This document shows positions 2,466 through 10,300 of a stretch of 25,344 nucleotides of DNA, piece by piece. Source of the stretch: a virus. Numbering within the stretch: the stretch's first letter is position 1; each line of letters opens with the position of its first letter. The position numbers were made by a program, and so were the translations under genes. The notes under the pieces were generated by a model. It did not search any database and was not told the origin of the DNA. It saw nothing but the letters and a program-made list of their open reading frames with translations. The stretch spans positions 1 through 25,344 of the IMG/VR virus record IMGVR_UViG_3300023106_000026, one strand, 5' to 3'.

Positions 2466-2612
2466 AAAGCAACCCTTACGGGTTGCGATGCGTCTCCGTA
2501 AATGGAATCCACTAATCCATTGCAGTAAGTGGCCCGGAGATGCTTCGCAGTTTGTAAGAACTGCGCATGGCTACCCCTATTCGGAGGTGTTCCTGCGAGG
2601 GCACCTCCACCT
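2466..2612 (+). ncRNA. Structured RNA candidate with H-type pseudoknot between lysozyme and exonuclease genes
   Basis: No ORF fills 2463-2622, yet almost all of it pairs. Seen directly: hairpin GCAACCC/GGGTTGC (2469-2475 with 2480-2486, TTAC loop); a 9-bp stem 2490-2498 with 2535-2543 (one G-U); inside it an H-type pseudoknot, AATGGA/TCCATT (2501-2506 with 2516-2521) whose loop CCACT (2509-2513) pairs AGTGG (2528-2532); hairpin CGCAGTT/AACTGCG (2546-2552 with 2559-2565); hairpin GGAGGTG/CACCTCC (2583-2589 with 2602-2608). No T-tract follows, so it is not a plain terminator. It may be a cis-acting leader of the exonuclease, a stable 3' end of the lysozyme mRNA, or a free small RNA. No known family recognised. 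Confidence 0.6.
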
Positions 2613-2622
2613 TAATTAAAGA

Positions 2623-3399
2623 ATGGACATTATGAACAGAGAACCAAAGATATTATTATACGACATTGAGGTGTCGCGACAAGTGGTAGAAGGATATGGT
2701 AATCGCTGGGAATTTAAGCTTGTCAAAACCATTAAAGAGCAGCAGCTTATGAGCTTTGCCTACAAATGGCTAGGAGATAAGAAAGTAAGTTATCTCAGCC
2801 GTCATGACTTTAAGACTTATGAAGCGTTCGTATTCTCACTATGGGAACTGATTGACGAAGCCGATATCGTAATAGCACATAACGCTAAACGATTTGACAA
2901 CAAGATGGCAATGCGTTTCTTTATCGAAGCAGGGCTGACACCCCCGTCTCCATACCGCACTATTGATACGTTACTAGTCGCACGTTCAGAATTTAAGTTC
3001 CCCGGTAACTCATTAAATGATCTATCCGCCTTCCTAGGAATAGGCGAAAAAGAAAAGATCACCTATGCTGACATCGAGACTGACTTCATGTCTGATAACC
3101 CTAGCCATAAAACATTGAAGCTTATGGAGAAGTACAATAAGAAGGATGTTGATCTACTAGAGAAACTCTACCTTAAACTTCGACCTTACATTCGTAACCA
3201 TCCTAACCTCGCAGTCATCTCTCAGAAGCCAAACACTTGTGTACAATGTGGCGGAGATCACCTACAGAGTAGAGGATATGCAGTGTCTAATAGTGCAGTC
3301 TATAAACGATTCCACTGTCAGGACTGTGGAAAATGGCAACGGACTAGGCTTGCTGATAAAGAAGCTGGACAACACAAATCTGTCTATGTTAATATATAA
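2623..3399 (+). CDS. DEDDy 3'-5' exonuclease (RNase H fold) with C-terminal zinc ribbon
   Basis: Residues about 8-190 carry the three exonuclease motifs: YDIEVS (Asp14, Glu16), AHNAKRFDNK (Asp92) and YNKKDVDLL (Tyr171, Asp175, the DEDDy form). Residues 206-235 hold two CxxC pairs (CVQC and CQDC), a zinc ribbon resembling those of IS200/605-type and phage proteins that bind DNA. It should degrade DNA or RNA from the 3' end with two metal ions, perhaps host DNA or repair intermediates; it lacks a polymerase domain. The ATG at 2623 has no good Shine-Dalgarno, and the only GGAGG nearby (2583-2587) is inside a hairpin. A second ATG at 2632 is possible. The structured RNA lies directly upstream. 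Confidence 0.87.
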   Translation: MDIMNREPKILLYDIEVSRQVVEGYGNRWEFKLVKTIKEQQLMSFAYKWLGDKKVSYLSRHDFKTYEAFVFSLWELIDEADIVIAHNAKRFDNKMAMRFFIEAGLTPPSPYRTIDTLLVARSEFKFPGNSLNDLSAFLGIGEKEKITYADIETDFMSDNPSHKTLKLMEKYNKKDVDLLEKLYLKLRPYIRNHPNLAVISQKPNTCVQCGGDHLQSRGYAVSNSAVYKRFHCQDCGKWQRTRLADKEAGQHKSVYVNI

Positions 3400-4143: not shown

Positions 4144-4172
4144 TTGACAAATTAAAAACCTCCTGTTATGCT
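4144..4172 (+). promoter_or_regulatory. Extended -10 promoter whose -10 lies inside an inverted repeat
   Basis: TTGACA (4144-4149), a 17-base spacer and TATGCT (4167-4172) with TGT before it (extended -10). Expected start near 4179. ACCTCCT (4158-4164) in the spacer is the perfect complement of AGGAGGT (4189-4195) downstream; GTTA/TAAC extends the pairing past a one-base bulge. Confidence 0.8.
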
Positions 4173-4178
4173 AGATAA

Positions 4179-4280
4179 GCACTTAACTAGGAGGTAAAGA
4201 TATCGGACTGCCCCGAGATGATATCAGCTCTTAGAACAAAGGGGTATAAAAAAGACTATCGTAATTGATAGTCTTTTTGT
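4179..4280 (+). ncRNA. Very short promoter-to-terminator transcript carrying an ideal Shine-Dalgarno
   Basis: The promoter at 4144 and the hairpin at 4249-4278 define an RNA of about 100 bases. It contains AGGAGGT (4189-4195) but no ATG, GTG or TTG at normal spacing. In reach are ATA at 4200 (5 bases after AGGAGG; 22 codons to TGA 4266, ending KGYKKDYRN, joined in frame by ATG 4218) and ATC at 4202 (10 codons). It is either a small RNA, a ribosome-site decoy, or an mRNA for a tiny peptide with a rare start codon. No family recognised. Confidence 0.45.
4249..4278. terminator. Bidirectional intrinsic terminator between convergent operons
   Basis: AAAAAGACTATC (4249-4260) and GATAGTCTTTTT (4267-4278) form a perfect 12-bp stem with loop GTAATT; T-rich sequence follows on both strands. 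It ends the rightward genes and the short RNA, and the leftward lysis operon whose last stop is at 4282. Confidence 0.92.
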
Positions 4281-4281
4281 T

Positions 4282-4452
4282 TTAGCCTCTATTGACTAAT
4301 GCAACGATACCCGCGATAACCAATACGACTGCTGCAATGAATCCTACGACTACTGCTGCTAGTACAAGACCGGCGACAATAGGGATTAGCTTTGCAAGTA
4401 ATAGTACTGCTATAGCTGAGAAAAGTGCGATTGAAGCGATTGCTACAAACAT
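4282..4452 (-). CDS. Small hydrophobic membrane protein, 56 residues
   Basis: ATG at 4452 preceded by AAAGGGA; stop TAA at 4282-4284, immediately before the terminator. The protein is almost wholly hydrophobic (Ala, Val, Ile, Leu), with two predicted membrane helices (about 2-21 and 27-52) separated by KLIP, and a C-terminal NRG. It is the last gene of the lysis operon, directly after the holin candidate. It could be a second holin, an antiholin or an unrelated small membrane protein. No Cys, and little charge apart from one Lys and one Arg. Confidence 0.72.
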   Translation of the reverse strand: MFVAIASIALFSAIAVLLLAKLIPIVAGLVLAAVVVGFIAAVVLVIAGIVALVNRG

Positions 4453-4471: not shown

Positions 4472-4729
4472 TTATTTAGTTGCAGCCTTGATCTTATCCT
4501 GGATGTAATTATACAGGAAGGTTACGATAGCTACTGCTGGTGGCAAAAGGGGAACCAACCAGGTTACGTTGTTGATAACAAACTCACGAACTTCTGGGAG
4601 TCCAACGATAGCAAGAAAAACAGGTGCCATTAAAATGAATACCTGGTTGAACGTACGAATAGTGCGTCCAAGACGTGTGTCTTTAAACTCTACTACCTTT
4701 ACTTCTCCGATGTCTTCTGATGTTGCCAT
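4472..4729 (-). CDS. Holin candidate, two membrane helices
   Basis: 85 residues: a polar N-terminus to about 27, hydrophobic helices at about 28-45 and 56-75, and a basic tail (DKIKAATK). Size, topology and place next to the endolysin fit a class II-like holin that forms inner-membrane lesions at lysis. AAAGGT lies about 8 bases before the ATG. The upstream 59-base gap (4730-4788) is AT-rich and holds one TATAAT (4763-4768, minus strand) but no matching -35. Family not certain. Confidence 0.68.
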   Translation of the reverse strand: MATSEDIGEVKVVEFKDTRLGRTIRTFNQVFILMAPVFLAIVGLPEVREFVINNVTWLVPLLPPAVAIVTFLYNYIQDKIKAATK

Positions 4730-7337: not shown

Positions 7338-10300
7338 CTACTTGCCTCTAAGTTTGTCATCAATGAAATCAGAGATACCATTACCCCCGGTAACTGTACG
7401 GCTAATTGTATTAACTGTACCAGCAACAGGAATTGCGTTCAATACTGTTCGACTACTCACGCCACCGTACTTATTAATAGGGTTAAGCGGAGTATTTAAG
7501 CCACTACGCACCTTAGAGTTTTCATTCCAAGGGTTGATGAGGCTTGAGCCAGTAGGGTCTGTCTTAGATATAGATCCAGCAACTGTAGGAGCATCTGCTT
7601 CTGGGTTGATTGAACTTGCAAGTCCATCCCATGCGAATTGGATAGCGGCCGTAGCAGCCCACATAGCACCTAGTGCAGCGACCCTTTTAGGTCCACGAAG
7701 ACTTGACAATCCTTTAATAGTAGTATCAATAGTTTTAACGTTATCTTCTACAAGCTTGATATGATCTCGTATAACCTCAGCTGAAGGTGCGTCAGATGGA
7801 GCTTTACCAGATTTAACGGCTTTCTCTACATCCTTTAGGCCCTTTAGATAAGCCTTGTATTCACCGCGCATATTGGCGATACTAGTTGCTCGAGGATCTC
7901 CACGTTGGATAACGTCGAGTGCACGGGCATCTTTGATCTGAATTGTATCACGAATGAAGTTGCTAATACCCAATGGGAATCGCATGAACATTGTGATTGC
8001 ACGCTTAAGGGCTGAACTATCACGAAGGAACTCTGGTCGAGCCAGTGAGTTAGCGCCAAATGCTGTATTATTTACCTGGATATTACCCGATCGTTCTGCG
8101 AATGCAAGCGCTTCGGGATCTTTGAGCGCAGTTTTAATAGCTTCTTGTTGAGATCTGCCAGCAGCAATAGCTTCGGTATAGGCTTTTGTTTGAGAAAGTC
8201 CTTGTGCAAATGCCTGTCGGAAAGGAGCTTCGATTGACTTCTGTTCACCCCAACGGTTAATGTCGTACTTACGAGCAGCTTCACCAACCTTAGTTCCACG
8301 TAGTGCTTCACCGGCTTGGGTCGCAGCTGTTTCGCCACCATTAATATCACCTGATACAGTTTGATCACCAAACCAAGCCTTACTGTCTACTAGTTTTAAA
8401 TCATCTTTGTCAAAGGCTTTGGCAAGTTTACGCCCATCACCTGTGATATCACCACGAGCAAGTAGCTTCTGTGATAATGCAAATGCAGCGTTCTTTGGGT
8501 TATTCCATAGGAAGGCGCTGTAAACATTATTTTGTAGTCCCTTAATCCACTTATCAGCCGTAGAACTAGAACCTTGAGAGATCCCGTTAGCAAGCATAGT
8601 GTTTAAGTACTGAATACCATCATTGAATTGACCGGTATTAGCACGAATGTAAGCTGGAACCTTATCAAGCGAGTCGGCGAATTCATCTAGTACTGGTGTG
8701 AAGGCGATGTGATTGATCATTCCATCGACATATCGAGGAAGAACTTCGAGGATATTGTTGTTTGTAAGTTCTGGTTTCTCATCAAGTTTACGCTCCATTG
8801 CGTTACCAGATACAACACGAGTCTTTTTATCTACAAGTCCACCAGCAAGGTAGCTAGGTGATTCGGAATAATCTTTAAGCATATTCCAAGGAGAGTAGTT
8901 ATCACGAACCGGCATACCGGCATCGATCATCTTTTGTTTTATGTTATCAAATACTGTAACAACACGGTCATAGATTTGACGTGTCTCCGGGTCGGTAATA
9001 TATTTAGCAACATTGTCTCGATCTTCAAGGGCTTTAACGATGTCGGCACCAATCTTGATGCGTCCTGTCTCTGTTTTACCAGCAACTCCCTTAGATAGTT
9101 TGACGATCTCTCGCATAGGTACACGGAGGTCAGTCTTCATATCAGCTTTGATCTTAGATCCACGAACAAGTGATTCTGCTGTCTTTGCACCGGCTTCACC
9201 TAGTGTACGAGTGGCATAGCCAATAGAGTCGCTTAAGTAACGACCAATAGATTTCGTAAGATTTTCACTAGCTCCGTTAGAAACTTTACCTTGTGTAAGG
9301 TAAGTTACTGCCTTTGCAACTTCTGGATCAATCTTGTTTAGGTTAAGATCAGCAGCAAGTTGTGGATCAACATCTCCAATAGTGGCAAGTTCTGTATCTT
9401 TAGCTTTACGAGGTGTTTGTTTCTTTCCTAGAATCTCAGCAGCACGATCAGCTGGACTTATATCCATAGTTATCTCACCGATATCAGCTTGAGGGGTAAC
9501 CTCTGCGGCCATTGTCTTTACTGGCATTCCACCGTATGATTTAGATACATCTTCAATAGGGAATGATGTCATTCCTAACTCACGAGCAGCCTGTAATCGG
9601 TGGCGGCCATCTTCAATAACGACAGATCCTTCTGGAGTCTGACGTATGCGAATAGGTTGAGCTGTACCGTTTTCAATTTCCTGTTTGGCACGTTCAACTG
9701 CACCATTCTTTACACCGGCAGATGTTTTCTCTAGTGAGTTATCTGCTAATTGTGATAGCTTAGTAACATCCGCCTCACCATCATAAGTAGGTAGTGTAAG
9801 TGGATCTACATCAGCAGCAATAAATCGATCAGCAGTTCCTACTGTTTCAGCAGCTTGCTTAGATTTGAGGTATTCTGCTGGATTATCAGAAAGTGCAGCA
9901 GCTTCAAGATCATTAACTGGTTTCTGAGCAGGAGTTATGGTGTTAGGTTCAACATTTTGTGGTTCTACACGTGTAAACGGATTAGTAGCCGCTTCAGGAA
10001 CTTCAGGTGCTTTTTCTGTTTTCCCACCCTTTGTGATTTTAGGGCCTTCAATAAGAGTATCTGCGAATTTAGTAGCAGTATCTTGGTCCATTTCAAGTAA
10101 ACGCATAGAGAGATCTGGATTGGTTTCAATTGCTTTTTGAATCTTGGCTTGTTGGCTAGGTTCGAGTCGTTGTACTGCCTGGAAGAATGGTAGTTCTGAT
10201 ACCTTAATGTCATCAAGTGGGCTTTTGTCCCGACCACGAGTCTTTGCGAGTGTGCTAGATAGACGACCGAGAATACCACCAAGGGCACCTCCGATAGCAG

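Follow-up and report, generated by a model that had tools for sequence, protein, structure and literature searches.

Positions 2463-2622 of the phage sequence analysed here (the window, 25,344 bases that make up a complete IMG/VR record, a fragment of a tailed phage) lie between a lysozyme gene and an exonuclease gene and are tightly folded in a way that chance does not explain. In close relatives an outer frame of helices is conserved while the inner module has been replaced, and in more distant relatives the same place holds arrays of tRNAs and other structured RNAs. We give about even credence to the reading that this gap is a swapped non-coding RNA locus, which would be transcribed with the lysozyme, processed and active in trans. 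A processed non-coding RNA is thus more probable here than a switch that controls the exonuclease.

Both flanking genes agree with the description in the original prediction. The upstream gene (1860-2462, + strand) encodes a Phage_lysozyme2 protein with a signal-like N-terminus (Pfam PF18013, E 2.2e-29), and the downstream gene (2623-3399, + strand) a DNA-polymerase-type exonuclease subunit (phrog_403, E 6.2e-73). The nearest annotated capsid relatives of this phage have less than 40% identity. A search with the lysozyme protein identified three IMG/VR phages that share this gene order, L016, L017 and L018 (89%, 75% and 64% identity, respectively). Just upstream of the lysozyme GTG is a sigma-70-like promoter (1825-1853, + strand; TTGACA-17-TACACT with an extended -10 TG, 10 of 12 consensus matches), which in an alignment of all four phages has a conserved -35 and extended -10 and a variable spacer. 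Because this conserved promoter precedes the lysozyme and no terminator follows it, the gap RNA is likely part of a lysozyme-exonuclease transcript, and the promoter likely drives all three.

The fold was compared with 200 dinucleotide shuffles, a control proposed with the original prediction. On the + strand, 2466-2612 has a minimum free energy (MFE) of -60.1 kcal/mol versus -41.7 +/- 3.6 kcal/mol for the shuffled sequences (z -5.07), none of which was as good; the minus strand folds less well (z -2.72). All segments quoted in that prediction lie where it placed them and pair as it described, but its statement that almost every base can pair was too strong: about two thirds of the 160-base gap (67%) is paired in the MFE structure, and 2565-2582 is mostly single-stranded. 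The + strand structure begins with hairpin H1 (2469-2486, 7 bp, loop TTAC), followed by a bounding stem whose strands, 2487-2498 and 2535-2546 (CGGAGATGCTTC), pair in the MFE structure and have a pair probability of 0.97. This stem consists of the previously noted 9-bp stem A (2490-2498 with 2535-2543, including one G-U) plus two more pairs and one T-T mismatch. Next come hairpin H3 (2547-2564, GCAGTTT-GTAA-GAACTGC), a single-stranded leader, TACCCCTATTC (2572-2582), and, directly after it, hairpin H4 (2583-2611, GGAGGTG...CACCTCC and then ACC). The suggested second arrangement, ATGCG with CGCAT, was rejected with a pair probability of 0.0. An intrinsic terminator was likewise discarded, in agreement with the original prediction: the gap has no run of four or more T, and the sole terminator-like match is on the opposite strand at H1.

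The bounding stem encloses a module of 37 nt, in which stem S1 (2501-2506 with 2516-2521, 6 bp) and stem S2 (2509-2513 with 2528-2532, 5 bp), both exactly complementary on the + strand, can be arranged as an H-type pseudoknot with loops of 2, 2 and 6 nt, which is sterically possible. When the 160-base gap was shuffled 3000 times, such a knot with 6 + 5 perfect pairs arose 11 times, and never together with an enclosing stem of 8 bp or more; as the thresholds were fixed after the feature had been seen, these counts are an upper limit on the surprise. The nested ensemble gives probabilities of 0.97 for stem A, 0.73 for S2 and 0.15-0.18 for S1. Since it thus prefers A with S2 over A with S1, the knot would need tertiary stabilisation, and its formation is possible but not proven by energy alone. 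S1 and S2 are absent from L016, L017 and L018, and because these relatives carry another module at this point, the case for the predicted pseudoknot is made by the shuffles and not by conservation. A tight pseudoknot descriptor matches the window and none of the relatives, an exact search found the pseudoknot core nowhere else in IMG/VR, and the region was not found in the phage collection. With a relaxed descriptor, a knot topology common to the relatives was considered and dropped, the loop pairing CCGTGA/TCACGG of L016 being within the shuffle level (21%). In the twister ribozyme, an enclosing stem contains a hairpin whose loop pairs with the junction, and UAA follows the enclosing stem directly. 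The predicted fold in the window shares both traits, but it has no Rfam match even at E 10, no internal-loop P2/L2/P4 or second pseudoknot on inspection, and a module that is not conserved.

At this position the window, L016, L017 and L018 each carry a gap that is structured and non-coding (tested stretches of 158 to 617 nt), with folding z values of -2.4, -5.1 and -4.1 in the three relatives. The frame common to the window, L016 and L017 comprises H1, the bounding stem (its 5' strand matching GAAGAG.. in both relatives), the CTTCGCAGTT junction from bounding stem to H3, H3 itself, the pyrimidine-rich leader and H4 with ACC; L018 has kept only the leader, H4 and ACC. A frame pattern search matched L016 and L017 only. 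When the frame pairs were aligned by hand (four genomes in all, L018 with the H4 part only), 7 pair columns showed compensatory changes, with one broken cell overall. H1 has one compensatory and two one-sided columns, none broken; the bounding stem has compensatory changes in 2 of 7 columns and the one broken cell; H3 has one-sided changes only (L016, L017). In H4, 4 of the 7 pairs are compensatory without a broken cell and the ACC is invariant in the four phages. Leader and H4 form the most conserved part of the gap. Of the structure for which compensatory changes in related phages had been proposed as a test, the frame therefore passes and the pseudoknot is not conserved.

Inside this frame the content differs in size and sequence. 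The inner module measures 37 nt in the window, about 90 nt in L016 and about 200 nt in L017, and the gaps of L017 and L018 hold two or three modules. Outside the frame, no similarity was found between the modules of the four phages (BLAST, 7-base words, E 0.01). In L017 and L018 an identical bounding stem of 14 perfect pairs (AATGTTGATAATAA/TTATTATCAACATT) encloses contents that differ. Window and L016 are 92-100% identical at the DNA level over most of the lysozyme and about 62-65% identical from 2460 onward; as their similarity collapses inside the gap, we regard the gap as a recombination junction. From these four genomes the modules appear to have been replaced and not to have slowly diverged. 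Such a junction, with identical stem arms around different contents, is also what would be seen if the inverted repeats were a DNA-level element (an origin, or sites of recombination or insertion) and the RNA fold a by-product. We consider this improbable, given that in each of the four gaps the + strand gives a better fold than the - strand and that G-U pairs are kept in the frame helices, which favours RNA. For a replaced RNA module, it follows that the turnover of structured RNA modules can outpace that of the adjacent genes, and conservation-based RNA discovery would therefore miss such modules.

The start of the exonuclease, AATGGA with two in-frame ATGs, is kept in all four phages. The original prediction had pointed out that this second copy of AATGGA (2622-2627) could compete for the TCCATT of the pseudoknot and act as a start-site switch. 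The copy is there, but TCCATT occurs in the window only; because it is absent from all three relatives and the pairing has a probability of 0.001, the switch is unsupported and we rejected it, while the other suggestion, a stable small RNA, remains a sensible guess. A broader role in cis is a tentative alternative: as an element of the lysozyme-exonuclease transcript, the structure might protect the lysozyme 3' end, serve as an mRNA processing site or tune exonuclease translation. Differences in mRNA stability are often set by stable structures between cistrons, and this fold fills the space between two co-directional genes, with H4 and its leader as the most conserved part and the end of H4 14 bases before the exonuclease start. 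Against this, the gap fold leaves the start region free of sequestration, a cis role does not need modules that range in size from 37 nt to about 200 nt and number two or three in L017 and L018, and in relatives this place is occupied by trans-acting RNAs. A short protein gene can be read through the structure as well, in a 43-codon ATG frame (2488-2619) that is open from end to end. We rejected this very unlikely reading, because a frame of this kind occurs in 5-8% of shuffles, and the one here lacks a ribosome-binding site before it and has no homologous frame at this place in the relatives. The scan with Rfam 15 bore out the initial impression of an unrecognised class: no family matched the window at its gathering score, and 2440-2640 gave no match at E values up to 10.

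To the non-coding RNA reading, the distant relatives add a context. L052-L062 were found with an alignment of the four exonucleases and have exonuclease identities of 51-66%. In L052-L056, L058, L061 and L062, a region of 0.7-1.4 kb ahead of the exonuclease is filled with tRNAs and other structured RNAs, and tRNA arrays occupy the same slot in L026, L053-L056, L058, L061 and L062. Seven of these phages carry an RNA of 81-83 nt (M1; L053:3119-3199, L054:3598-3679, L055:3434-3515, L056:2670-2752, L058:1465-1546, L061:3509-3589 and L062:3455-3536) that matches the Rfam tmRNA model over its full length, except that 12 nt stand in for about 300 model positions (tag frame, pseudoknots); a short hairpin replaces tag and pseudoknots. 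The scores reach 48.6 bits in L055, above the gathering threshold, and 42.7 bits in L061 (E 1.5e-15). Across the seven sequences, 96.6% of cells are paired and 9 of 17 pairs have changed on both sides, and none of 500 shuffles covaried as highly on the main measures. The third acceptor pair, an alanine identity position when it is G-U, is an invariant G-U in all seven. TLD-only tmRNA is already known from mycobacteriophage DS6A (PMC4131195, PMC11915505), and the M1 RNAs thus join a type already described. Another recurrent RNA, about 200 nt long (M2; L053:3516-3719, L054:3677-3893, L058:1784-1976, L061:3666-3890 and L062:3677-3882) adjoins the exonuclease in its five phages. Compensatory changes affect 14 of its 53 pairs, its bounding stem covaries, and its near-invariant core, CGTAAGTCAGCCAAACGAGATTTCCGTAG, is in its exact form confined within IMG/VR to phages of this clade.

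The RNA of the window belongs to none of the families found in these relatives. A model of M1 (R1: acceptor, T-arm and short P2-like hairpin ending ACCA) found nothing in any of the four phages (window and L016-L018) at E values up to 1, and a model of M2 (R2) had no match in the window at the same limit. Two further kinds of element were observed during these comparisons. Genes of 121-140 nt that resemble tRNAs but have long insertions, with T-arm, acceptor and CCA intact, are located at L053:3283-3421, L062:3540-3679 and L061:3385-3505. The short motif GCCrCTArCCTCTTCGwGAAwGyTAG(T/C)CCCC, which has a covarying stem but otherwise stands in surroundings that differ from one another, occurs at L017:9075-9123, L055:3544-3592 and L056:3232-3269 (coordinates converted from the stretches compared).

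Hairpin H4 has the start, length and end that would be expected of a tRNA acceptor stem. In all four phages, it is a 7-bp stem that begins with G1-C72, is followed by A73 and CC, and starts with its G after a tRNA-type leader, CCCCYWTTC. Similar leaders (CCYCCTTTCT or CCCCTTTCT) abut the 5' ends of true tRNAs or mini-tmRNAs in L054, L058, L061 and L062. The window RNA has neither a T-arm nor CCA, its last base being T and not A. The genomic slot is the same as that of phage tRNA arrays; ARAGORN detected no tRNA in the window or in L016-L018. In L018, the stretch 8684-8757 inside a 14-bp bounding stem has a hairpin that resembles a T-arm (CAGG-TTCGAGT-CCTG), and an acceptor and a D arm are possible there, but an anticodon arm is missing; a tRNA-like reading was dropped, as neither Rfam nor ARAGORN accepted it as a tRNA.

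For the swapped RNA locus, we propose that the lysozyme promoter drives a common transcript of lysozyme, gap RNA and exonuclease, and that the conserved frame (H1, bounding stem, H3, leader and H4) holds an exchangeable structured module, which in the window would be the H-type pseudoknot. Because H4 sits where the 5' ends of tRNAs and mini-tmRNAs sit in the relatives, the frame helices would probably be where the transcript is cleaved, by analogy with stable-RNA operons. The released RNA might then target a host RNA or an RNA-binding factor in trans, and selection could drive the turnover of the modules. Such trans action has a precedent in a molecule similar to the TLD-only tmRNA of DS6A, which strongly inhibits host tmRNA, perhaps via SmpB titration (PMC4131195). 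Both are phage RNA loci, and relatives of the window carry TLD-only tmRNAs at the homologous place, but a covariance search found no tmRNA or tRNA-like domain in the window RNA, in which the acceptor-like H4 alone is suggestive. GOLLD and ROOL are RNAs of phages and prophages found near tRNA islands, with unknown function (PMC12286853). Like them, the window RNA would be a pseudoknotted phage non-coding RNA at the position of a tRNA array, and in GOLLD the 3' part is conserved and the 5' part less so. However, GOLLD and ROOL are homo-oligomeric and hundreds of nt long, compared with about 145 nt here, and their Rfam models have no match in the window. A more speculative extension, which we hold with clearly lower confidence, is that the locus is a phage RNA-effector cassette. 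Its RNA domains (pseudoknots, tRNA-like and tmRNA-like RNAs) might be swapped by recombination at conserved bounding stems, turn over like protein accessory genes and serve as decoys or inhibitors of host RNA machinery in trans. The roles of phage non-coding RNAs at tRNA islands (GOLLD, ROOL, TLD-only tmRNA) are mostly unknown, and a slot with swapped modules would allow their function to be addressed by comparing modules in isogenic phages.

A separate small RNA gene was noticed on the + strand at 4144-4282, between a glutaredoxin gene and a converging gene at 4472. It consists of a promoter (TTGACA-17-TATGCT), an RNA from about 4179 and an intrinsic terminator, all three of which are conserved in L016, L017 and L018. 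No Rfam family reached its gathering score for 4179-4282, and a model of this RNA (R3) matched the window and L016-L018 only, apart from a weak match in L071 (8434-8499); it had no match at the 2463-2622 locus. The RNA contains the hairpin GATATC/GATATC, whose loop TGCCCC can pair with a downstream GGGGTA. In the L016 copy, hairpin (GCTAAC/GTTAGC) and loop pairing (GCCTC/GAGGC) are both preserved by compensatory changes.
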